From Rhyzopertha dominica (Eukaryota; Arthropoda; Insecta; Coleoptera; Bostrichidae): a DNA stretch of 64,000 bases. The translations under genes were made by a program, and so were the position numbers. The stretch covers positions 11,532,001 to 11,596,000 of the forward strand of contig QCXZ01000053.1 in the NCBI GenBank assembly GCA_025024175.1, read 5' to 3'. A model generated the notes under the pieces. It worked only from the letters and a program-made list of their open reading frames with translations. It did no database searches and had not been told where the DNA came from. Of this stretch, positions 4,760 through 57,365 are shown piece by piece. Position 1 is the stretch's first letter; each line of letters starts with the position of its first letter.

Positions 4760-5390
4760 AAGTTAGCTAACCCACACGGATCGCTACCTGCATGCAGATT
4801 GACACCACCGCCCCGCCCAAAAACAGGGAGTCATCAACACGCTGATACAGCGAGCGAAGCTAGTCAGCGAACCAGACCATCTAGAAGAGGAATTAGAACA
4901 TCTACGCAGAGCACTGCAGAAGAACGGATATCCTAAGGCACAGATTGAGAAGGCTATCAANAAGCAACCACGGANGAAGGAACCAGAAGAACACATCGCT
5001 GCAGCATACCTGCCCTACATCAATGGATGTACAGATAAGATCGGACGGCTGCTGAGAAGACATCATATAAACACCATCTTCACCGCCCCGGGAAAGATAG
5101 CTAACGCCTTTCCGAAATATCGTTCGACGACTGAGGAGCTACAAACACAAGGTGTGTATAGCATCCCATACAGCTGTGGGAAGGTTTACATCGGCCAAAC
5201 CGTAAGGCACATCAGCACGAAAATCAAGGAACACGTGAGGGACTCCAGAGACCGGCAAGGTGATAGGTCGGCTGTAGCAGAACATCGAATGGAGACTGGC
5301 CACATCACAAGTGCTGTCAAAGGAAGCGAGATTCTGGCCGAGGCTGTACAAGGAATCCATCGAAATCCAGAAGAATACGTACAATTATAA
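4760..5390 (+). pseudogene. Penelope-like element 1: RT C-terminus and GIY-YIG endonuclease
   Basis: This is the C-terminal part of a Penelope-like retroelement polyprotein. The stretch from about 4770 reads as the end of the reverse transcriptase and the linker typical of PLEs (THTDRYLH, then HLRRALQKNGYPKAQIEKAI). From about 5150 there is a GIY-YIG nuclease domain: GVYSIPYSCGKVYIGQT holds the GVY and YIG tyrosines, KIKEHVRD carries the expected Arg/Lys-rich helix, and VAEHRMETGH follows. The frame stops at TAA 5388-5390. Two unresolved bases (4961 and 4975) fall in the linker. The upstream RT catalytic core is missing or too decayed to read, so this is a 5'-truncated, dead copy. In PLEs this endonuclease nicks the target to prime reverse transcription. 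Confidence 0.85.
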
Positions 5391-27765: not shown

Positions 27766-27834
27766 ACTTAAAATTGTGCGCCATTCAGGTATCTGTATGT
27801 GACAATCAGTTAGCCTATCTAAGTTATTTTCTTC

Positions 27835-28270
27835 TAATGGAATAAATATTGCTTTTTCTACCGTAGGCAGTGTGTTTTCCCGTTTTGTCCGTAATAAAGA
27901 CCAAATTTAAGTTTTAAATAATTCAGGCGTTTATAGTTTTTCATGTAATGATTGCAATTCAGTTTATATTGGACAAACCGGAAGATCCTTTTTAACTAAA
28001 GGTAAAGAACATTTGAAAAAATTTGAAAAGTATAAAAATACAGATATTATTGCAACAAATTCTTCGTTAGCCAACCATTTATTAGTAAATAAACACACTG
28101 CCACGCTAGACAATCTAAATTCATTACATTTGTGCAGTAAATCATCTAAATTAAATTATTTGGAAATTTTAGAGATTTATAAAATTATTAACGAACAAAA
28201 TTTTACTATTATAAATGATTTTTGTAATTTCAATTGTCCTATTCTAAATTCTTTGTTTGATCTAAATTAA
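27835..28270 (+). pseudogene. Penelope-like element 2: linker and GIY-YIG endonuclease
   Basis: The frame from about 27836 reads NGINIAFSTVGSVFSRFVRN, then a premature TAA at 27908-27910. It then continues in frame as VLNNSGVYSFSCNDCNSVYIGQTGRSFLTKGKEHLKK and runs to the stop at 28268-28270. GVY and YIG carry the GIY-YIG tyrosines, and two cysteines (SCNDC) form the zinc-like CX2C seen in PLE endonucleases. LEILEIYKIIN matches the late EILE motif carrying the family's glutamate. The RT domain upstream is lost. It differs clearly from PLE 1 and PLE 3, so it is a separate lineage. Confidence 0.85.
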
Positions 28271-28370
28271 TGTTTCGTTTGAATTACTGGCATGCGGGTT
28301 GCATTTCAGTTTGTAGTCAAGTTTGCTTATTTCTGATTTTTTACTTTGTCAAACTGTTAGTTTCCTTTTA

Positions 28371-28420
28371 ATTTTTGTACTGACGATGGCTAACATGTAG
28401 CCGAAAGCGCTGTACAATTG
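28371..28420 (+). ncRNA. Hammerhead ribozyme-like motif of PLE 2
   Basis: Stem I pairs TTGTA (28375-28379) with TACAA (28413-28417). The core CTGACGA is at 28380-28386, followed by one unpaired T. Stem II pairs GGCTA (28388-28392) with TAGCC (28398-28402), then GAAA (28403-28406). The following AGCGCT is self-complementary, a loopless stem III. The base at the cleavage position is G, which is not favourable, so this copy is probably inactive. It lies 110 bases after the GIY-YIG stop codon. Confidence 0.65.
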
Positions 28421-28599
28421 TAAAAATAAAGTGGAAGTTCACTTTAAGAATATTTTCTTTAGAAGAATTAATTAATAACTCCACTTAGAGAAGATGGATC
28501 AGTTTTCAATTTTTAAAATCAAGATAGAGTTGCAAAGAGTAATAAGAAAATGAAAGACGAAGCAAGAAACATAAAATTGGAACAAAGTTAAGATAAAAT

Positions 28600-34605: not shown

Positions 34606-35888
34606 ATTGGGTATTATCACTATTTTTTAAAATTACGTAAAATGAATCTTGAATTGCATATATATCGTACGCCATGCTAAGAAAAACAAAAAAAAATATT
34701 TGTAGGTAGAGAATTTCAGGTCTGAAATTCGAATCTTAGGAGTCACCGCCAAAACGCTTCTATCCAAGGTTATTCAACTCGTGACGTCAAGTGTCATGTA
34801 AACATTACTGAGGAGCGTGCTGTTTAATGCTGTAGTATCATTCTTGTATTGGAAAAGCTTTTGTGTGGTGTTTTTTGAAAGGACGGTGTAAGAGGTCGCA
34901 CCAAAAAGTGATTTGTGTAGTTTTACAAGCATCTATTATGTATGGAAGACAAAACAAGTATTGTTTTGTACATGGTTATAAAAGTACTTCTGTCAGTACA
35001 GCTAACAAAATTTTTGTAACCGTTCCTCGAGATTATCAACGTATGAAAAAGTTGTTTAAGGCCCCTAGACGTGATATGCCGAAATCGCAAAGTTTGTTTT
35101 TCTGTTGTGAAGATCATCTTAATTCTTACTGTAAGTTTTATTATTCTTTTTGGGGTTATAATCGTTTACCATTAATTTCCATTTTGTTATAGCTTGAAGA
35201 GGATATGAAAAATTATATGCGTTTTAAGTTGATAGAGAGAAATATTATAACAAAGAACGACGTTGTTCTCCATATATTCGACTGTTAGCCAGACCGGAAA
35301 CGAGCCAAAAGAACCCCGAAAATAAATGGCAATTTATATTTATTCTGTCCTCTAAAATAAATGGTAAGTTTAGGGTACCTTTTTATATTTACAAATAGTA
35401 TGTTTCCAACAACCCACTGTGATCAAATTATCAATGCTACGTTAATTTGATAAAAAGTACACTTATGCTGTTGCTTGTTGCTTTTACGTTCCTCATCTCC
35501 ACCGCGTTGAACCGCTCATCGCTGTACACAAATTCCATAACAATGAACATGCCTTCAGAAATCATAAGTATTTCACTTTTTCTTGGCGTATTTTAATTCG
35601 CTTGTCACAAAATGAACGCAAACAACAAACTAATAAATTGACGGGCTGAGGTTGACGCATGACGCGCTGACCCGATGTAAACAAGCGGCCATCTACAAGA
35701 CACCTGACGTCACGGTCAATATGTTCGCGTTCTGGCGGTCCCTTTAAATATTCACATTTTTAATATTAGAAATACACCTTACGATCAATTTTTTCGAATT
35801 TATAGGCTGTCACAGCTGTTTTGTGGATTAGATGCTACCTATTAATATGCAATTTAATAAAATATAGATACATGACAAATACCCAATT
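34605..35888 (+). mobile_element. THAP-type DNA transposon copy 1, apparently complete ends
   Basis: The left end AATTGGGTATT (34605-34615) is the inverse of the right end AATACCCAATT (35878-35888). The AATT at the tip is shared by every end seen in the three copies, so it is probably part of the inverted repeat or a constant target. The element is about 1.28 kb, has one THAP exon near its left side and no catalytic domain, so it is non-autonomous. THAP domains occur in P, Kolobok and ISL2EU transposons, and I cannot choose between these. Other copies are at 45612-46802 (plus, left end lost) and 55002-56212 (minus, left end lost). Confidence 0.75.
34938..35290 (+). pseudogene. THAP-domain exon remnant, copy 1
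   Basis: The frame from ATG 34938 encodes about 64 residues: CFVHGYKSTSV, ANKIFVTVPRDYQRMKKLFK, FFCCEDHLN. This is the THAP DNA-binding fold (C-x2-4-C ... C-x2-H), in which the second zinc-ligand cysteine is replaced by Tyr (GYKS instead of GCKS). A short intron-like gap follows (GTAAGT at 35131, TTATAG ending 35192). Then LEEDMKNYMRFKLIERNIITKNDVVLHIFDC appears, which is the usual continuation of this transposon family, ending at TAG. As written the splice gives an immediate stop, so the gene is dead. Confidence 0.75.
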
Positions 35889-36355
35889 GACGAATTGACA
35901 TTGAATTCATTAGCTTTCATTTATCCATATCCATCCATAACTTACATTTTAACTTTTACGTCGCTAGGAAGCTCAAAAATGGCTAATCTTTTGTAGTTAT
36001 AATTACAATGGTTTGTGTTTAAAGAAGGAGTTAACAAACATGTCGACAATCTGTCAGTAGGTAGTTACTGTCCAAAACATAATCTATGTGATTACCGCCT
36101 TTCTCCGGGTAAAAACCGTAGTTAACAAAATGTAAATATTTATAGAATGTTCTTTGTATTTGTTCTAATACTTTAATGTACAATACACTATATGCGCACC
36201 ATACAATCTAGAAATATTCAAGATTGCTTCTAACTAGACACCGAAATACTGCTATCAAACTGTCAATATCCCTAAAGTCGGTGGTGTTTTTTTTTTTTAG
36301 AAAGCCGAGTGTTCTCATGCAAAGTACTTAATATCGTATTAATATGTATTGTAAA
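35889..36355. other. Non-coding stretch, nothing recognised
   Basis: AT-rich DNA between a THAP element and a LINE fragment, with no features seen. Confidence 0.4.
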
Positions 36356-40559: not shown

Positions 40560-41470
40560 TACACTGTGAATCCTGCATCATTTTTTTTCTTTATGTCGCG
40601 CTGATTAAACATAAATTGAATATAATATTGGTAAACACTGTATTACCTTCTTTAAAGCTTCTAGACCCCGGTAAAATAATCTCAGACATCACATATATTT
40701 TGTTTTTTATTGATATGCTGGGCCAACTTAATTGCCAGTGTTGTGTTTATGCTGACGACTTGAAAATAGTCACTTGTATACCATACGTAGAAAAAGGTTG
40801 TCACTTGTTACAATACGATTTAAATAGGTTTAGTGATTGTGACTCAAAATAACTTCTAAAAAATGTAAAACGCTACGTTTTTCGAGAAAAATTACTAACA
40901 TAGAATACAAATATATAACAAAATACTGAAATCGACAAAGTTTATCAAATTAGGGACTTAGGTGTGATTGTGGTGTTAACTTTTGTGCCCCCCAAAAATC
41001 ATGATATTCGCTATGGAACGCATACAGCGCAAATCGTGGTTATTATCCTTAGAGGCAATACCCTACTAGTAATTTGTTGTATGAATTTAATATATGTCCT
41101 CTTAAGATACAGCGTCAGCTAGCTTGTATTGTGTTTCTATACAAATTAATTCACAATCATAGGTATATCGTGCGCTAGTTTGTTAAGTCAGTTACGTTTT
41201 CTTTCAATCACGTACCACCTATAATTTTTATTCCCCACTGAACAACATGTCTAGATATTACAACTTAGGTAATTTCATCTGATGTGTGATATATTCGAAC
41301 CTAATTTAAACATTTTTGTAAATCGATGCATAAATATCCTTAAAGGCACTTAGTAGCTATAATTTTGAGCTTACTTTTTATATGTTTGCATGTTTATAAC
41401 CTGTATCTCATGTATTTTCATCTTATTGTTATTGTAAAATATGAACACTATTATTATTATTATTATTACC
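40560..41470 (+). pseudogene. LINE ORF2 3' part with (ATT)n tail
   Basis: 40640-40760 contains LDPGKIISDITYILFFIDML (decayed palm region), then CQCCVYADDLKIVTCI with the catalytic YADD intact at 40748-40759, then LQYDLNRFSDC. Downstream, with frame changes, there are YQIRDLGVI and LTFVPPKNHDI (the DLGV motif), then a C-terminal part with CIVFLYKLIHN. The sequence ends in an ATT run at 41450-41467, the usual 3' tail of such elements. This is a jockey/CR1-like non-LTR retrotransposon, 5'-truncated and broken by stops. Confidence 0.75.
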
Positions 41471-41497
41471 ATTGCTTTGGTATATAAGCAAAACCAG

Positions 41498-41620
41498 TTC
41501 TATGCCGTGTTGTCTACACTAGACCTAAACTGCACTGATGAGCTGTAATGACAGCGAAATAGTACTATCTGCAGTTGGTTGAGGTGTAGACAGCACAGCA
41601 TAGACATGCATTTTAATTAT
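41498..41620 (+). ncRNA. Hammerhead ribozyme, type I, canonical core (copy A)
   Basis: Core CTGATGA is at 41535-41541. Stem II pairs GCTGT (41542-41546) with ACAGC (41551-41555) around AATG. GAAA is at 41556-41559. Stem III pairs ATAG (41559-41562) with CTAT (41565-41568) around TA. The cleavage base is C at 41569, in an ATC triplet. Stem I pairs AACTGCA (41528-41534) with TGCAGTT (41570-41576), and after a small interruption is extended by about 25 further bases on both sides (GTCTACAC / GTGTAGAC and beyond). All invariant hammerhead positions are met. It starts 30 bases after the LINE (ATT)n tail. Sister copies are at 52.5 and 56.3 kb. Confidence 0.85.
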
Positions 41621-42042
41621 TAAATTAAATTTAAATTTATATATTCAAATACATTGCTACTCGGCCGCGATATGACACTTTCTGCGACAAACTAACATTC
41701 AGCTGACTGGACGCCGATACGTTGATTTTAATTGCGAATAGTATACACTTGTTAGTTAGTATCTTGTTTTTGCAATTAATAATAGCTGAATAAGCTATTT
41801 ATTTTTCATTCAATAAATTGTGATCACAAAGCGGCCATTAAAAGTATATATCCAAATCTCAGATTTCTATACAAGGATTCGAAGTGCTTAGTTTTTAAAT
41901 AAAAGGCTATTTGACCTGCAATCGGTGCAACTTGGCACAAACCCGGGAGAAACAATTTCATCATGACAGCAGCGGCGCGGTACAAAAACGCGTCTTGCAA
42001 ACACACCAAGGCCAAAACCACAATCAGCGTAAATCGCCTCAC

Positions 42043-42903
42043 CTGTTTCCTTTTGAGGTTGTTCTCGACCGGCAACGGTGCGAACGGTATCTTCCCCTCG
42101 TACTGTTCCTGCATCTCGTCCAGATACTTCTCGAACTGCTCCTTCTCCAGCTGGTCGTCACTGATCCTCAGGTAGGCCCTCCAGTTGGCCGAATCGAAGC
42201 CCCAATGCACCGTTCTGTTCTCGCCCTCGCCGTCGGTGTGACACACGAAGTTCTGGGGCGAAAACCACCCGTGGCAGTCCGTGCACTCGATGCACGCGGC
42301 ACCCTTCGACGTGTACAGTTCGGGGGTGCACACCCCCCTCGCCTTGCCGAAGCACTTGTGGTACACACTAAAGCACAGCGCGTTCTTGTGCGGCCGCATC
42401 GCCATCGCGGCCTGCTGGTGCAGCATGGCGCTGCATAAGCGTTCAGCGTCCGTCTTCGTGATCAACCCGCAGCTGGGCGCGGACCGCGGGAGGATCCCGT
42501 GGTTCTTGAGCACGTTGAGCTGCTCGGGGGTGCAGCGCGAGCAGTAGATCTGCAGGCGGTCGCACTCGTGGTTGATCTGGATGAGGGAGAAGTCCTGAAG
42601 CACCGAGTTCAACACCTGGGGCAGGCACAGCCGTTTCTCCCCGCCGACCACAAAGCACGATATCCCTTCGCCCTCGAGGATGGTCTCGCTGCGTTCGCTG
42701 CAGCTCGTGTCCGGGGCGGCCAGTATCGGCAGCTGCTGGATGGGCAGCGGCGCTGGATGCAAGAACTCGCAGTCATCCTTGGGATCCGGCGANGCCGTCT
42801 CGCTCTTCGGGACGACCAGAGAAAGGCCGGGACCCTGCAGGCTCTTGGTCGCGCTGTGCTGGTAGTTCTTCAGTACGCATTTCAGGTGTGGAGTCACTTC
42901 CAT
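42043..42903 (-). CDS. Ski: Ski/Sno family corepressor, first coding exon
   Basis: This encodes 287 residues of a Ski/SnoN-type nuclear corepressor that binds SMAD complexes and represses TGF-beta/BMP target genes. Residues about 72-165 form the Ski/Sno/Dac (DHD) domain (ISCFVVGGEKRLCLPQVLNS, then RCTPEQLNVLKNHGILP). Residues about 178-250 form the SAND-like SMAD4-binding domain (FSVYHKCFGKARG, then CIECTDCHGWFSPQNFVCH, whose Cys/His are likely zinc ligands, then HWGFDSANWRAYLRI). Start: ATG 42903 has a strong context (GCCATGG) and begins MEVTPHLK; an upstream in-frame ATG at 42951 is weaker. The exon ends at 42043 with CAG|GTGAGG, phase 0. One ambiguous base (42793) gives one unknown residue. 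Later exons, including the coiled coil of Ski proteins, are not seen in the window. Confidence 0.93.
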
Positions 42904-43550
42904 GGCTGTCTCCTCAACGCGGCATCTCTCACACATTAAAACTTCACACACTTCACTTCCTGGTCGCTCGCGAAACCGACCGCGACCGACGTCTACCTAA
43001 ACATGTCTGCCGCGAAAGCCGACGATCGTCTAGTCTGCGCTGGCAGACTGGGCCATTGCGCAGACTCGCGTGCGGCACTCGCGAAACACCATTTTTCCGA
43101 CGGTTTTCTCGCAATAAAAACACCGGGATGGTCGACGTATTCCTACTGTTAGGGACAGAGTCGAATTTCCGTCACCCAGTGTGCAGATTTTACTGCGAAA
43201 AGTCGATTTCGCGAGGTGGCAATCGCCGTGCAGACGTTCGGCTGGAAAGTCTAGCCAGCTGTCTCGTCCCGCGCCCCGTCTAGGTGGGGGTCATGTGACC
43301 GACCTTCCCGTCAAAATAGCCGACATGCCAGCGCTCTAGAGAGGGACGAGCGGGAGGCGGATGAGTTTTCTCTGTCGGGGTCCGCACGTGCAATGCTCTC
43401 CGCGAAAGAGACTGCGGTTTCGTTGCGCTCTCGTCTACAATGTCCACGAAAAGACGTAAACAGTGCGAAGACACGGCCGGCGCAGCCTCCTGGAAATCGC
43501 AAGAATGGGGACCACTTCGAAATTCTAATGCAGCACTGAACCTTGAAAAG
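42904..43550 (-). promoter_or_regulatory. Probable Ski 5' UTR and CpG-rich promoter region
   Basis: The stretch upstream of the Ski start is far richer in GC and CpG than the rest of the window (CGCGACCGACG, TCGTCCCGCGCCCCGTC). It has open frames on both strands only because of its base composition. No TATA box is evident. Together with the exon it forms the main GC island of the window, as expected for a broadly used developmental promoter. The exact transcription start cannot be fixed by eye. Confidence 0.5.
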
Positions 43551-45610
43551 TGAACGAAGCCTCTCAAAAAAAGTGGTTCAGCTTAAATTGTAACGCGATT
43601 ATGTAATTAGCCCCCCAGATCAAGTTCAAATTAGATATATAATTAACTAACAAGAAACCAAATGAATTCATTATCGTGTGTTAGATATTTTAACGGCATC
43701 ATAATGCAATTATACATTAGCGATAACCTATAATCATAGTAGATTTGGAGGGCTAAACGCACAGCAACGGAATTAGCATTAGATCAATAGATGATGTCAA
43801 AGTCCATTAAATATTATTTAGGAACTAGGTGCTTGGTTATTTATTATAACAACTTGATATAAGAAGTATTTAAAAACAAAAGTAATACCTAATAGTGTTA
43901 ATAATAACCATTTGACACGAAATCGGTACCCATTTAATATAGCTGCCTATATGAGATTACTATATTATAGAACCTATTATACATACCTTGGGAAAGGATA
44001 GGACCGGTAATTTTAAGTAAACAAGTTTATGTAAACATATCCCCTTAAACGCTTGGTTTCAAAGGGTTGACGGAAAAATCACATTTTCAAAAGAAATCTC
44101 AGGAATTCATCAATCTATAAACTTCAGATTTGGCAAATCGTCTTATTAGTATTTAAGGGCGGTTATTTGACAGTTTTTGTCCAAAAGGGGTACATTGTAG
44201 CTACTTCTTTTTTTATCCATAACTTTTCGTTTTTTCCCATTTTACTAGTATATTTAAATTTACACGATCTTCTTCTAAAAAAAAGTTGACCAAAAGTACG
44301 AGCTGCTAGCGTCATCCGTTTTCGATATATTCAAAATTTTGTAGTTTGTAGTGAAAACATACTAAAAATAAAAATCTTACATGCTTATTCGGTAATAACG
44401 GACAAAAACACAACAAAAACATCAAAGTAAGAATGGAAATCCTTAATCGTTACAATACTAATTAACGTCTTTATTTATTTATTTATTAAATCAAGTTCTT
44501 TCCAGTATAACGCATTACACTTCTAAGTTCAAATGTACTTTAATTTCATTGCATTACGTTTCATTAACACAACTGGACGCGATTATGCAGAAAACAATCA
44601 ACCCACAAGAGCTTCAAATTGAAACCAAGCTCAGAAAATTGATCTAATAGTCATATATTTTTCATTGCAGTAGACTGCATTTGCCCTCTGAATATATTGA
44701 GGTAATGAGACAATGTCAAAGCAAATCCTTTTGTATTAACCGAAACAAAACCTCTATGATTTTTGAGCACCCTCATTAATTTTCAGTTATAATGTCACAA
44801 GAGAGTGAGAATAAATTGAAAATAATTCGACGGAACTTCGAGAACTGTTCGAGAATAAAAGTTCCGGAAAATAATTTTCTAATTTATTTTCACTCTCTTG
44901 TGGTATTAGATAGATTATTTTTGGACATAACAAGCAGAAACACTGTTTCAATATTATTCATCGAGTGAAGATGTATTAAATCTTGTTCCACTCATTTTTA
45001 GTAGAGTTTGATAACAGACGTCAAGCTAACAATTTTTGTTGCCATGGAAAACCTACCTTAAGTTATTCCAGCGAGAATTTGCTCTTGTGAAAATTCCCAC
45101 TATAATAGTGTTTTGATTCGTTAAAAAGGACATAATTGACCGAAATTGAATTTTTTGATTGGTTTTTAGAAAGGTCACAAAATAGTCAGAAAAAAAATCA
45201 TGGTTGTGGTGTGGTTGTTTTTTCAGATAAAACATATTTTAAAAGGTGCCCATATTTGCTACCTGTAATGTATTTTTGTGAATACCAGATTGATTAAAAA
45301 AACTAATAGTTCGAAATTAATAGTGCATATGAAATCCCACAATTAAGGATAAACAGTTCTTACAAATAAAAAATGGATTAATTCGCTACTAAAAAACGAT
45401 GCACAGCATATTTTCAGTCAAAACTATCTAATAGTAATATATTTTTAATTGCAAAAGACTGTATTTGCTCTCTGAATATATGGAGTCTTTTGTAATTTGT
45501 ACTGATGATGTTCTTAAAAAAAAAGATGAACCATTTCTGCTTAGTGTTTAACACAATTCCTCTAATGCATCTGAACAAAAGATTGACATTCAAACGATAG
45601 AAGAGAGGAA
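43551..45610. other. Upstream non-coding stretch with a hairpin and a direct repeat
   Basis: 44786-44902 folds into an about 30-base imperfect hairpin (arms starting CACAAGAGAGTGA and ending TCACTCTCTTGTG), possibly a small MITE. An about 60-base direct repeat occurs at 44643-44702 and 45427-45485 (TCTAATAGT-ATATATTTTT, then CTCTGAATATAT). No gene is recognised. Confidence 0.5.
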
Positions 45611-45611
45611 A

Positions 45612-46802
45612 AAATATTTGTAGGTAGAGAATTTCAGGTCTGAAATTCGAATCTTAGGAGTCACCGCCAAAACGCTTCTATCCAAGGTTATTCAACTCGT
45701 GACGTCAAGTGTCATGTAAACATTACCGAGGAGAGTGCTGTTTAATGGTGTAGTATCATTCTTGTATTGGAAAAGCTTTTGTGTGGTGTTTATTAAAAGG
45801 ATGGTTTAAGACGTCGCACCAAAAAGTGATTTGTTTAGTTTTACAAGCATCTATTATGTATGGAAAACAAAACAAGTGTTGTTTTGTACATGGTTATAAA
45901 AATACTTCAGTCAGTACAGCTAAAAAAATTTTTGTAGCCGTTCCTTGAGATTATCAACGTATGAAAAAGTTGTTTAAGGCCCCTAGACGTGATATGCCGA
46001 AATCGCAAAGTTTGCTTTTTCTTTGTGACGATCATCTTAATTCTTACTGTAAATTTTATTATTCTTTTTGGGGTTATAAATGTTTACCATTCAGTTTCCA
46101 TTTTGTTATAGCTTGAAGAGAATATAAAAAATTATATGCGTTTTAAGTTGATAGAGGGAAATGTTATAATAAAGAACGACGTTGTCCCCCATATATTCGA
46201 CTGTTAGCCAGACTGAAAATAAATGGAAATTTATATTTATTCTGACCTCTAAAGTAAATGTCAAGTTTGGGGTACATTTTTGATTCTTACATTTTTATAT
46301 TTACAAATAGTATGTTTCCAATAACCCACTGTGATCAAATTATCAATGCTACGTTAATTTGATAAAAAGTTCACTTATGCTGTTGCTTTTACGTTCCTCA
46401 TCTCCGTCACCTTGCACCGCTCGTCGCTGTACACAAATTCCATAACAATGAACATGCCTTCAGAAGTCATAACTCTTAAGTATTTCACTTTTTCTTGGCG
46501 TATTTTAATTCGCTTGTCACAAAATGAATGCATACAACAAACTGATAAATTGGCATGTTGAGGCTGACGGGTGACGCGCTGACCCCAGATGTAAACAAGC
46601 GGCCATTTACAAGACACCTGACGTCACGGTCAATATGTTCGTGTTTTGGCGGTTCCTTTAAATATTCACATTTTTAATATTAAAAATACACCTTGCGATC
46701 AATTTTTTCGAATTTATAAGCTGTCACAGCTGTTTTGTGGATTAGATGCTACCTATTAATATGTAATATAATAAAATATAAATACATGGCAACTACCCAA
46801 TT
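45612..46802 (+). mobile_element. THAP-type DNA transposon copy 2, left end lost
   Basis: This is collinear with 34690-35888 from the GTAGGTAGAG block to the right end (TACCCAATT at 46794-46802). The first about 80 bases, with the left inverted repeat, are missing. The THAP frame at 45858-46050 reads CFVHGYKNTS, ANKIF-type AKKIFVAVP, then a TGA, then QRMKKLFKAPRRDMPKSQS and CDDHLN. The second zinc cysteine is again Tyr. The opposite strand carries an 80-codon frame (46375-46617) that is also found in copy 3 and, shifted, in copy 1. Confidence 0.8.
46375..46617 (-). CDS. Small antisense frame shared by THAP elements, unknown
   Basis: The frame has no recognised family. Its C-terminal half (FCDKRIKIRQEKVKYL, then MTSEGMFIVMEFVYSDERCK, ending VKATA) is preserved at 55284-55429 on the plus strand in copy 3. 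It is disrupted by a small deletion near 35570 in copy 1. It runs opposite to the THAP exon, near the far end of the element. It may be a remnant of a second transposon-encoded product or of captured host sequence, or it may be open by chance. Its partial preservation in young copies does not prove coding. Confidence 0.3.
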   Translation of the reverse strand: MSCKWPLVYIWGQRVTRQPQHANLSVCCMHSFCDKRIKIRQEKVKYLRVMTSEGMFIVMEFVYSDERCKVTEMRNVKATA

Positions 46803-47639: not shown

Positions 47640-48456
47640 AAGTATGAATAAGGTAAGTATAAATTTTTTATAAACCCTCAATTTTATTAATACTATGNAT
47701 TTCTCTATTAATGACACTATTTCTAAAAACAATATTTTCATCAAATTCGGTTCAGTACAGATCATTTTGACACCNTTAAAATTAAAAGAATGACTGTTGC
47801 TCGTACAATGTTCGGTTAATACAGATTTATTAGATTTAAGACATATATCTCTCATATGTTCCTCCATCCTTTTTTCTAAATACCCACCAGTCTGTCCGAT
47901 ATAACATGCAGAACACGAGTTACAACCAATCTTATAAACAATATTAGATCTTAAATTACTAGGAATCTTATCATTGACCTTAGAAAACACGGATGCGACA
48001 CTAACCACGGTACTAAAAGAAAATTTGATGTTAGGAATATCATCAATAAGGTTGGTGATCCTGTCAGTTAGGTCCTCAATGTAAGGTAAGTTACATAATA
48101 GCATAGGTGTGGATCAGTTATTATTAGCAATATTATGATTTAAAGACATAGTTGAAGAGTGATCTGTATGTCTCCCGGCATCAAATGCATGTATACATTT
48201 ATTAATGAAAGACAAGGGGTATGAATTTTCCATTAAAATTAATTTAAGTTTATCAATATTATTTTTAATTAACGAAGGATGGTAAATACGTACTACTTTG
48301 TTATAAAGACATTGTACTAATTTAACCTTCATAGTCATTTTATGGTAGGAGTAAAAATTTAGATATCTACCAGATGCACAGGGTTTGATATACTAATCAA
48401 TTAAAATTTTATAGTCATTAGTTCTTATAAGTCGAGTTTCGAGGAAAGGTATACTC
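47640..48456 (-). pseudogene. Penelope-like element 3: RT C-terminus and GIY-YIG endonuclease
   Basis: From 48456 on the minus strand one frame reads PFLETRLIRTNDYKILID, an in-frame TAG where Trp is expected, then YIKPCASGRYLNFYSYH and the linker MKVKLVQCLYNKVVRIYHPS ... LMENSYPLSFINKCI. After an in-frame TGA (48116-48114) it continues with IPNIKFSFSTV, then NIVYKIGCNSCSACYIGQTG (GIY-YIG core with a CX2C pair), then RMEEHMRD, VLTEHCTSNSHSFNF, and MKILFLEIVSLIEK with the catalytic-type glutamate. Two ambiguous bases (47698 and 47775) lie here. This is the most complete PLE in the window, yet it is dead because of the stops and the missing RT core. Confidence 0.88.
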
Positions 48457-52475: not shown

Positions 52476-52568
52476 GAAAATGCATGTTTATGCTATGCCG
52501 TCTGCAGAGCAACCAACTACAGATAGATCTATTTCGCTATCATTATAGCTCTTCAGTGTAGTACCCGT
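52476..52568 (-). ncRNA. Hammerhead ribozyme, type I, canonical core (copy B)
   Basis: On the minus strand: core CTGAAGA (52556-52550), stem II GCTAT pairing with ATAGC around AATG, GAAA (52535-52532), and stem III ATAG pairing with CTAT around AT. The cleavage base is C (rc of 52522) in an ATC triplet. Stem I is ACTACA pairing with TGTAGT, six pairs, then opens. Downstream (minus sense) it keeps the family tail GTTGGTTG, GGCATAGCAT, ACATGCATTTT. Compared with copies A and C several stem bases differ but the pairing is kept (GCTAT/ATAGC versus GCTGT/ACAGC). This compensatory change supports a selected RNA fold. Confidence 0.87.
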
Positions 52569-52634
52569 TAAGGCAGCTAGGTGGCTTTGTCATTGTGTCA
52601 ATTCTTTGCTCACAGATGGCACTGACATCTATTT
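52557..52634 (-). repeat. Module flanking hammerhead copy B
   Basis: About 75 bases (plus-strand reading GTAGTACCCGTTAAGGCAGC, TAGGTGGCTTTGTCAT, then ACAGATGGCA) are repeated at 56503-56575 beside hammerhead copy C. In copy B the module directly precedes the ribozyme on the minus strand and supplies its 5' stem I strand. In copy C it lies about 110 bases beyond the foldback. Confidence 0.75.
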
Positions 52635-52639
52635 TTCTG

Positions 52640-54865: not shown

Positions 54866-55001
54866 TAATTTCCACAATTTTATAAAATAATTTCTAAAAT
54901 TTTGCCTCATGGGAGGTTTCTGAGCGACATGGAAAAAAGTAAAATCTTCGCTTTTTGGGATGAATGCTCAAACATTTAACCGGTCTCGTAAAGTTGTCGC
55001 C

Positions 55002-56212
55002 AATTGGGTATTTGCCATGTATTTATATTTTGTTAAATTGCATATTAATAGGTAGCTGCTAATCCACAAAACAGCTGTGACAGCTTCTAAATTCGAAAAA
55101 GTTGATCGCAAGGTGTATTTTCAATATTAAAAATGTGAATATTTAAAGGGACCGCCAAAACGCGAACATATGGGCCGTGACGTCAGGTGTCTTGTAAATG
55201 GCCGCTTGTTTACATCTAGGATCAACGCGTCACGCGTCAGCCTCAGCCCGTCAATTTATCAGTTTGTTGTTTGCGTTCATTCTGTGACAAGCGGATTAAA
55301 ATGCGCCAAGAAAAAGTGAAATACTTATGCGTTATGACTTCTGAATACATGTTCATTGTTATGGAATTTGTGTACAGCGACGAGCGGTTCAACGCGGCGG
55401 AGATGAGGAACGTAAAAGCAACAGCATAAGTGAACTTTTTATGAAATTAACGTAGCATTGATAATTTAATCACAGTGGGTTGTTGGAAACATACTATTTG
55501 TAAACATAAAAATGTAAGAATCAAAAATGTACCCTAAACTTGACATTTATTTTCGGGACTCTTGCGGCTCTGTCTTCGGTCTGGCTAACAATCGAATATA
55601 TCAACTTAAAACGCATATAATTTTTCATATCCTCTGCAAGCTATAACAAAATGGAAACTGAATGTTAAACACTTATAACCCCAAAAAGAAAATAAAACAT
55701 ACAGTTAGCATTAAGATGATCTTCACAAGAGAAAAACAAACTTTGCGATTTCGGCATATTACTTCTAGGGGCCTTAAACAACTTTTTCATACGTTGATAA
55801 TCTCGAAGAACGGTTACAAAAATTTTGTTAGCTGTCCTGACTGAAGTACTTTTATAAGCATGTACAAAACAACTTGTTTTGTTTTCCATACATAATAGAT
55901 GCTTGTAAAGCTACACAAATTACTTTTCGGTGCGATCTCTTACACCGTACTTTCAATAAACACCACACAAAAGCTCTTCCAAAACAAAAATGATACTATA
56001 CCATTAAACAGCACGCTCCTCGGTAATGTTTACATGACACTTGACGTCACGAGGTGAATAACCTTGGATAGATGCGTTTTGGCGGTGACTCCTAAGATTC
56101 GAATTTCAGACCTGAAATTCTCTACCTAAAAATATTTTTTTGTTTTTTTTTTAACATGGCGTACGATTTATATGCACTTCAAGATTCATTTTACGTAATT
56201 TTCAAAATAGTT
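55002..56212 (-). mobile_element. THAP-type DNA transposon copy 3
   Basis: This is the reverse complement of copies 1 and 2. Its right end is at 55002 (AATTGGGTA on the plus strand). The left side reaches about 56212, lacking only the outermost bases relative to copy 1, and the hammerhead foldback begins 50 bases further on. The CRE-like TGACGTCA-containing block (55178-55190 and 56042-56050) is present in all three copies near both ends. Confidence 0.8.
55665..55889 (-). pseudogene. THAP-domain exon remnant, copy 3
   Basis: The minus-strand frame reads CFVHAYKSTSVRTANKIFVT, then RDYQRMKKLFKAPRSNMPKS and FFSCEDHLN. The THAP pattern is clear. The second Cys is again Tyr, and one Cys of CCEDH is now Ser (SCEDH, keeping the likely ligand). 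No catalytic transposase sequence follows. Confidence 0.7.
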
Positions 56213-56263
56213 GCAAGAAGAACTATTGCTACAGCGAGTAACACTTTAAAAAGTCGAAATAGA

Positions 56264-56394
56264 ATTAAAATGCATGTCTATGCTGTGCTGTCTACACCTC
56301 AACCAACTGCACTGATGAGCTGTAATGACAGCGAAATAGTACTATCTGCAGTTGGTTGAGGTATAGACAGCACGGCATAGACATGCATTTTAAT
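56264..56394 (+). ncRNA. Hammerhead ribozyme in a 48-bp foldback (copy C)
   Basis: Core CTGATGA is at 56312-56318. Stem II pairs GCTGT with ACAGC around AATG (56319-56332). GAAA is at 56333-56336. Stem III pairs ATAG (56336-56339) with CTAT (56342-56345) around TA. The cleavage base is C at 56346. Stem I is exceptional: the 48 bases before the core (56264-56311) pair with the 48 bases after the cleavage site (56347-56394), with one G-U pair and one mismatch. Every invariant hammerhead position is present. Such a long stem I should slow release of the cleaved RNA. Its perfection suggests recent formation by inverted copying or a foldback element. Confidence 0.9.
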
Positions 56395-56502
56395 GTATGT
56401 TGGTTCTTGCCCGTTAGCAAAAAGTGCCGTTGGGACCTGCTGTCAAACTGAAGTATGCAGTTGCATGCCAATTTGTCAGGCTACAGGTCACTTCCTTTAG
56501 GA

Positions 56503-56575
56503 AGTAGTACCCGTTAAGGCAGCTAGGTGGCTTTGTCATCATGTCAGTGTAATGCTGACAGATGGCATTGCCATC
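56503..56575 (+). repeat. Module shared with hammerhead copy B
   Basis: This matches 52561-52634 over about 73 bases (TAGTACCCGTTAAGGCAGC, TAGGTGGCTTTGTCAT, ACAGATGGCA). It lies between the foldback hammerhead and the Tc3-like pseudogene. An AGTAGT-ending hairpin (CTTCCTTTAGGAAG) precedes it. Confidence 0.75.
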
Positions 56576-56581
56576 CTAAAT

Positions 56582-57365
56582 TCTTACTTTCGAAATAGAA
56601 TTGATCAAAAGTGCGGGCTTGATGTTTCAAAATGGACTATAGGGAGGGTTCTATAGAAAAGTGAACACATTGTACGTCGAAAACTAAGAAAATGTCCGAG
56701 ACTTCTTTCTCACCATAAAATAGCGCGTTTGGAATTTGCTCGTGAGAACATGAATCGAAATTGGGAAAATGTAAACCAAAACTTTACAATTAAACCACGT
56801 TATTTATCTATTATATCTATTCTAATGAAAAAAATTGATCTTGATGGTCTAGATGGTTTCAGTTGTTATTGGCGAGATTTGAGGAGAGAACCGCAATATT
56901 TTTCAAAACGAAACTTTGGAGGTGGTACGTTAGTGGTGTGGGGTGCCATTACAGAAGCAGGCGTTTTAACATTGGCTTTCCCATCAATATGAATGAACAG
57001 TCGAGAGTACATTCAAGTTCTTGAGACAAATTTAATGCCTTTTTTAAATAACAATTACGAACGAGATTTCATTTTCCTAATGCAATGATGCATGTCAGTA
57101 GAGAGTCGCTGGCTTGGTTTGCTAACCAAAATTTCGAATTGTTAGAGTGTCCCTTTTGTTCACCTGACATTGAAAACCTTTGGGGTATCTTAGTTCGGAG
57201 AGTATATGCAGATAACCGACAGTATGCCACCATAAATGAACACAAAAATTCGTTAGAAGAGGTTTAGGCCAATTTGGAACCAATGATACTAAATAATTTG
57301 GTTGGAAGCATGAATCTATAATTTTTGAGCTAACTAGGAAGCATGGAGGCCAAACCCATTATTAA
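56582..57365 (+). pseudogene. Tc3-like transposase, broken
   Basis: This is a Tc1/Tc3-type DDE transposase. Readable pieces in order: RNRIDQKCGLDVSKWTIGRV, an in-frame TAG, then SEHIVRRKLRKCPRLLSHHK, IARLEFARENMNRNW (DNA-binding half). Next is a frame-disturbed first catalytic region just before LDGLDGFSCYWRDLRREPQY, then FGGGTLVVWGAI, an in-frame TGA (56990-56992), and MNSREYIQVLETNLMPF. A frameshift near 57080 falls in the second Asp region (usual QQDNA), followed by HVSRESLAWFANQNFELLEC. In the third region the usual SPDLNPIENLWG has lost three codons, leaving SPDIENLWG with the catalytic Glu. GGQTHY and a stop end it at 57365. Confidence 0.85.

Follow-up and report, generated by a model that had tools for sequence, protein, structure and literature searches.

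A hammerhead hairpin in Rhyzopertha dominica as part of an inverted retrozyme insertion

A hairpin inside a retrozyme insertion

The window (the whole stretch of 64,000 nucleotides analysed here) contains a long hairpin at 56264–56394. A mechanical inverted-repeat search delimited its arms (56264–56311 and 56347–56394), which are 48 nt each, 96% complementary and separated by a 35-nt spacer. Only two positions of the arms deviate from Watson–Crick pairing, one C·A mismatch and one G·U pair, and both come from substitutions in the right arm (56363 and 56374). Folding of 56254–56404 gave −90.5 kcal/mol in comparison with a mean of −35.5 for shuffled sequences (z −15.3), with 0 of 200 shuffles being as good.

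The initial annotation of this DNA had reported a hammerhead with all its invariant positions, flanked on each side by 48 paired bases with one mismatch and one G-U pair. This was borne out, the core being of type I and complete, and the coordinates proved exact. The core, including stems II and III, spans 56312–56346 on the forward strand and is identical to the consensus of the repeat family described below. Stem II is formed by GCTGT/ACAGC, and stem III consists of 3 bp with a palindromic loop. This consensus identity marks the catalytic core of the window copy as intact, and cleavage would be expected between 56346 and 56347. In an Rfam covariance search, which the annotation had also proposed, no model reached its gathering threshold; the best hammerhead match of the hairpin was HH9, with an E-value of 2.6e-6 and 31.4 bits where 52 would be the cut-off. 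Minimum-energy folds recovered stems I and II and missed stem III. A microRNA precursor was considered and rejected, as the several Rfam models of this kind that match the hairpin do so below their cut-offs (e.g. MIR6140, 51 against 140 bits) and in a way that we read as typical of any long hairpin.

The hairpin is part of a 323–326-bp insertion (56264/56267–56589) of a 350-bp retrozyme of the metazoan type, with a 13-bp target duplication. We numbered the monomer from 1 to 350, so that the core begins at 268 and cleavage falls after 302. The left copy of the target-site duplication, TCGAAATAGAATT, lies at 56254–56266; its last 3 bases are common to the element start, and by sequence comparison it is identical to the right copy, TCGAAATAGAATT, at 56590–56602. 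Between them stands a short antisense arm of 48 nt (56264–56311, reverse strand), which runs from family position 350 to 303 and is the exact reverse complement of these positions, with 0 mismatches to the consensus. At its inner end a 7-nt microhomology, AACTGCA (56305–56311), fits both arms and forms the inverted junction. The core is followed on the forward strand by the right strand of stem I (56347–56394; family 303–350), in which comparison with the consensus located the two substitutions, and then by the retrozyme body (56395–56589; family 1 to 193), which in the segment analysis terminates at the second of two fixed start sites. As the left arm is exact and both changes lie in the right arm, the arms are most simply taken to have been perfectly complementary at the time of insertion. 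The 131-base hairpin is not in itself the mobile unit, since the element extends on to 56589.

Two further retrozyme copies are found in the window. One, at 41467–41618 on the forward strand, is a single arm (~200–350; the segment path extends 2 bases further) and retains the ordinary imperfect stem I of the family, in which an internal loop separates 5 proximal base pairs from ~20 distal ones. The other, older copy (52477–52635) has inverted arms of 347→267 and 108→186 in the segment analysis. Other features surround these copies. A repeat of ~1.2 kb is present three times (34619–35893, 45609–46802 and 54997–56211; 86–90% identity), its third copy stopping ~50 bp short of the retrozyme insertion, and the sequence to the right of the insertion, 56603–57350, resembles by eye a decayed Tc1/mariner transposase. 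A mariner transposon of the Mos1 type, with inverted ends of ~40 bp and a transposase split over two ORFs, occupies 912–2237. The GC-rich stretch at 41824–42951 carries a Ski/Sno domain and a c-SKI SMAD4-binding domain and is probably an exon of a Ski-like host gene.

Family, start sites and target of the retrozyme

The initial annotation had suggested a genome search for copy number and boundaries. It returned 2661 copies of the exact 25-base core in the 479-Mb genome (1352 forward and 1309 reverse) and 0 for the reversed control, so the hammerhead core is not a chance occurrence; the exact window junction is present in three copies. The exact core had 0 matches in viral contigs. In a separate DNA search with the 151-base hairpin region, 40 of 1482 candidates were scored. 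Relatives include tandem arrays with a monomer of 350–352 bp, present in 2.3–2.9 copies at three loci, and further arrays at other loci. The monomer has a GC content of 43.7% and no long ORF, the longest ATG ORF across the tandem being 87 aa. Stem III comes in two variants, ATAGTACTAT in 72 laps and ATAGATCTAT in 33 laps, each followed by the cleavage-site C, and the two adjacent sites that differ co-vary so that the palindrome is kept. Such a co-change would be expected if two ribozymes pair as a dimer, and a single ancestral change could also account for it.

Judged by its hammerhead, array size, GC content, lack of a long ORF and weak stem III with a palindromic tetraloop, the family is of a known kind, the metazoan non-LTR retrozyme. 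Its monomer length lies within the ~150–450 bp, and its GC content below the ~45%, that characterise these non-coding elements. The available part of the account by Cervera and de la Peña (2020; PMC7229834) describes these elements as small tandem arrays with a type I hammerhead, a weak stem III and a palindromic tetraloop. It shares with the present family monomers of ~350 bp, low GC, no long ORF, thousands of copies and the presence of Penelope-like elements in the genome. The satellite hammerhead repeats of amphibians (newt and axolotl), as covered there, are likewise tandem repeats of 330–350 bp with a type I hammerhead and a weak stem III. In comparison, stem III here has 3 bp and a GUAC or GAUC loop, and two-arm inverted insertions are not described for the amphibian repeats in that part of the paper.

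Insertions were analysed in three sets of loci: 1) the 20 best hairpin-like matches (L009–L028, the window copy being L028); 2) 15 further tandem or longer matches (L029–L043); and 3) 40 successive loci of contig C1 from the list of exact cores (L044–L083, the positional set), which requires the exact core and not the hairpin shape. Three clusters in the positional stretch of C1 were passed over as they were already in the set as L041–L043. Each locus was decomposed into sense and antisense monomer stretches, and the best-scoring copy was classified where a second one was present (L049, L053, L054, L059, L061 and L083).

We found two arms in inverted orientation, with starts at ~350 and ~193 and a variable junction, in 22 of the 40 positional loci (L044, L045, L046, L049, L050, L052, L053, L055, L059–L063, L065, L067–L069, L073–L076 and L078). 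A further 12 are in a single orientation with at least one end at ~350 or ~193 (L047, L048, L051, L064, L066, L070–L072, L077, L079, L080 and L083). The remaining 6 gave no clean fit: L054, L056, L057 and L082 lack both ends, the inverted L058 ends at 210 and 192, and L081 is complex with one end at 348. By local alignment, the arm starts fall at 346–350 and 189–201. The same start site was used twice in none of the 22 two-arm loci, for which an independent 50:50 choice gives a p of 2.4e-7.

The two-arm loci also possess target duplications. A duplication of at least 8 bp was found in 17 of the 22, including L049, where one chance extension was trimmed (16 are counted without trimming), and one of at least 11 bp in 13; the other 5 have none of at least 8 bp. 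Among 462 control pairs of flanks from different insertions, the corresponding numbers were 8 and 0. For the target motif we pooled 44 duplications, 16 from positional loci and 28 from the 35 other loci, leaving out L012, L021, L025, L029, L033, L037 and L042 (bounds unclear or only 4–10 bp), so that a pooled rate of 44/50 is not a fair frequency. Lengths in the pool center on 13 bp (19 cases) and 14 bp (11 cases), and the duplications are 83% A+T. The duplication is followed by G in 23, T in 31 and T in 31 of the 44 cases (p 1.8e-6 for the T's) and preceded, reading toward it, by A in 26, A in 31 and then C or A in 15 each. On either side the first flanking base is biased by the way the duplication is delimited, and the second and third are unbiased. 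The resulting consensus, aAC(N13)GTT, is two-fold symmetric, and GTT follows the duplication in 8 of the 16 positional cases. Both target strands appear to be cut at ↓GTT, and a symmetric target cut in this manner would fit a dimeric endonuclease.

These features bear on the possibility that the retrozyme is moved by a LINE-type element through ordinary target priming, with the inversions arising as in L1 twin priming. In twin priming, too, both strands of a single target are primed and the resulting insertion is inverted, and the length of the duplication and the inversion of 5' parts fit it in a general way. In L1 twin priming, however, the inverted piece starts at variable internal sites, whereas both start positions on the retrozyme RNA are fixed. 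The pairing of one start site with the other in every one of the 22 two-arm loci and the two-fold symmetry of the target motif are likewise at odds with such a mover, which we consider unlikely.

Origin of the arms and of the 48-bp stem

We next compared the arms of single insertions at variable positions. Among 75 loci analysed, position 296 was concordant between the arms of one insertion in 22 cases, discordant in 1 and mixed in 1 (57% concordance expected at random). The corresponding numbers were 15 concordant and 1 discordant at position 243 (56% expected), and 17 concordant and 0 discordant at position 249 (79% expected). In the 29 loci with enough overlap, mean divergence between the arms was 3.2%, against 4.6% between insertions, and lay below all 2000 random pairings. 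As the arms of an insertion share haplotypes, both come from one RNA source. The arms of L038 are ~930 and ~790 nt long, more than 2 monomers each, and their overlapping laps of at least 80 nt are free of substitutions (insertions uncounted). A template that was a single circle, copied over several rounds, would account for this, as might a homogeneous tandem transcript or gene conversion acting between the arms.

Junctions between arms show short microhomology, with a mean of 2.14 nt in the 22 two-arm loci (2.24 nt when L058, L071 and L081 are added) against 0.69 nt for random joins. Of the 25 junctions of the positional set, 17 share 0–2 nt. The window junction shares 7 nt, since the antisense strand has two complementary stretches owing to stem I. 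Among the loci chosen by hairpin similarity, the same junction is present in L012, L017 and L023, and its mirror form in L009. Since arm lengths and orientations differ among these four loci, the junction arose repeatedly. This foldback is rare, the exact 22-base window junction being present 3 times in the genome (window copy included) and in none of the 40 positional loci. Two other retrozyme insertions, L022 and L024, have a hairpin that is a near-perfect palindrome through stem II.

The recurrence of a junction within so easily self-annealing a stem (in L012, L017 and L023, and mirrored in L009) is what would favour self-priming, in which the second strand is primed by one cDNA or antisense transcript that has folded back on itself via the ribozyme stem, only one target strand being primed. 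Self-priming has been invoked for head-to-head inverted repeats with junction palindromes of rotifer Penelope elements, according to the accessible portion of PMC3846280. It predicts no fixed start for the second arm, however, and the inverted arm has a constant outer end at ~350, the other end lying at ~193; nor does it agree with the 0–2 nt of microhomology at most of the positional junctions. We therefore regard self-priming as quite unlikely.

The idea that foldback copies form a mobile subfamily of their own, amplified as foldback RNA or DNA in the manner of a foldback transposon or MITE, draws on the twenty fetched places that match the hairpin at 88% or more, some with a common junction, but is highly improbable given that at least 5 of these 20 (L015, L019, L020, L026 and L027) retain the imperfect stem I of the family, that copies vary in junction, arm length and core orientation with only three exact window junctions, and that duplications vary by site and positional loci carry many different junctions. 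A foldback or MITE-type DNA transposon in the strict sense was rejected, as the ends of the insertion are family positions 350 and ~193 and not inverted repeats of each other. The initial annotation had offered a foldback transposon with a ribozyme loop as one reading, and what holds of it is that the hammerhead resides in a mobile, folded-back element; the arms are not terminal inverted repeats, and the two ends differ in sequence.

Its other reading, a 48-bp stem I that serves to keep a cleaved RNA paired, gives way to a by-product of two inverted cDNA arms joined inside the ribozyme. The long-stem hairpin is a rare product of the junction. In the window copy the new arm took the place of the left strand of stem I together with its natural internal loop. 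Tertiary contacts between helices I and II are required for efficient hammerhead cleavage, as stated in the consulted part of PMC7229834. With the loop of stem I lost, the window copy would probably be a slow ribozyme with weakened cleavage.

The short arm of the window copy (350→303) stops at the cleavage site, within the 7-nt ambiguity of the junction, and run-off of the reverse transcriptase on cut RNA is possible in this copy. As a general explanation, such run-off was rejected, since by eye the arm ends of the positional sample, in which an intact core is required, show no peak at 303. Two regions of the family sequence, ~32–50 and ~107–128, seem by eye to collect the arm ends in L044–L083, and RNA hairpins may halt the reverse transcriptase there.

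A proposed insertion mechanism and a candidate mover

We consider it probable that the window feature is a single insertion of a non-LTR retrozyme that is ~350 bp long, is non-autonomous and carries a type I hammerhead, made in the following way. Tandem copies of the retrozyme would be transcribed, their hammerheads would cut the RNA, and the RNA would be circularised. A Penelope-like reverse transcriptase/endonuclease would nick each strand of the target at ↓GTT, with 13–14 bp between the nicks. Both target 3' ends would then prime on the same retrozyme RNA, one at ~350 (48 nt past the hammerhead cleavage site) and the second at ~193. The resulting antisense cDNAs, lying on opposite strands, would be joined via short microhomology to give an inverted insertion. 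In the window copy, the cDNA started at base 350 would have grown to just 48 nt, stopping at or just before the cleavage site, and would have joined the other cDNA in stem I, the pairing of the ribozyme supplying the match, with the 48-bp foldback as the outcome. The fixed ends, inverted arms, duplication with its motif, junction microhomology and shared haplotypes are observed in the DNA; the circular template, the Penelope-like enzyme, the ribozyme activity and the order of events we infer.

A more general form of this mechanism is put forward tentatively, our belief in it falling a little short of an even balance. Integration would be a concerted two-strand process in which a single circular RNA, bound at its two dedicated start sites by a dimeric enzyme, is copied into one cDNA per target strand, always one per site. 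Ribozyme stems could supply the joining microhomology, inverted insertions would be the normal product, and the two sites would be the only ends of the element.

A Penelope-like enzyme is the likely mover of the retrozyme, because this genome contains a Penelope-like element whose arrangement is likewise inverted and two-start. The ORF of this element (L084/L064; C1:5607619–5609262) matches RVT_1 with 31.9 bits, above the cut-off of 29.6. Its GIY-YIG match of 18.6 bits is under the cut-off of 22.6 and is missing at the default threshold. It has 48 homologues, including ladybird beetle proteins of 43–44% identity, with PF00078 and PF26215, the latter of which we take to be a Penelope-associated domain; some homologues carry PF01541. 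By eye, the insertion has one plain end at GAAGAATTAA and another that is inverted, tailed and ~42–46 bp further on, and a target duplication of 10–12 bp, ATGGAAGTTT, which is the single readable one and is without the GTT motif. The 3' region holds a hammerhead-like motif, CTGACGA…GAAA, recognised by its pattern and by visual inspection of the pairing, in which the base of stem II has a mismatch; an Rfam search of this region reported no hammerhead, and a structure scan did not list the motif either.

The window itself carries the 3' part of a Penelope-like element at 27806–28517 on the forward strand, with the end of the ORF and, by eye, a hammerhead-like motif near 28380 and a 'tail' after 28471. 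Its stretch 27806–28471 is 96% identical to the L064 element, and the window fragment has the longer end. Comparison of the retrozyme start sites with the Penelope-like 3' end, in the one family with readable ends, gave no convincing similarity.

Known Penelope-like elements share several of these features. As reported in the portion of PMC11167929 that we could draw on, the purified protein of PAc, a Penelope-like element of the green anole, cleaves both strands, extends each of them and begins synthesis at two internal sites; in vitro, its start sites are alike on both strands and hammerhead cleavage is not required. The corresponding part of PMC3846280 describes Penelope elements of the rotifer Adineta vaga with inverted pLTRs, optional tails and duplications. 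The retrozyme insertions resemble both accounts in the cutting and extension of both strands, two internal starts of reverse transcription, AT-rich targets, head-to-head inverted termini and short duplications, and the pattern of two internal start sites with priming on both strands seen in Penelope-like mobilisation is that of 22 of the 40 positional loci. They differ in that Penelope start sites are 30–40 bp apart (the 'tail') in an element that encodes its enzyme, whereas the retrozyme sites are 157 or 193 nt apart on the circle and the element encodes nothing. In addition, two-arm retrozyme insertions use one of each site, whereas the excerpted in vitro data for PAc show no difference between strands.

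Both retrozymes and the Penelope hypothesis are already known. Shared hammerheads, tandem arrangement and co-occurrence make Penelope-like elements strong candidate movers of animal retrozymes in the accessible sections of PMC7229834 and of a later review (PMC7761336), and a figure legend in the latter, on plant and animal retrozymes, lists target site duplications. The words 'inverted' and 'target site' are absent from the main text of PMC7229834, and what the present data add to the portion of that account available is a resolved insertion anatomy, with two fixed starts, inverted arms, a 13–14 bp duplication and a symmetric target. Within the partly accessible open-licence literature on retrozymes, hammerheads and Penelope, we found no description of two-start inverted retrozyme insertions. 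The insertions provide in-genome evidence for two-start, two-strand priming, which earlier work had observed in vitro with one Penelope-like protein. The 2661 exact cores, together with the fixed ends, the target motif and the target duplications, make the hypothesis of a Penelope mover directly testable.

Other Penelope-like sequences were noted at these loci. In L048:1–1257, a Penelope-like copy has head-to-head inverted parts that meet near 486 and resembles the retrozyme insertions. Within the window, 4770–5303 (26% identity) and 47790–48029 (38% identity) are pieces of further Penelope-like families that have diverged.
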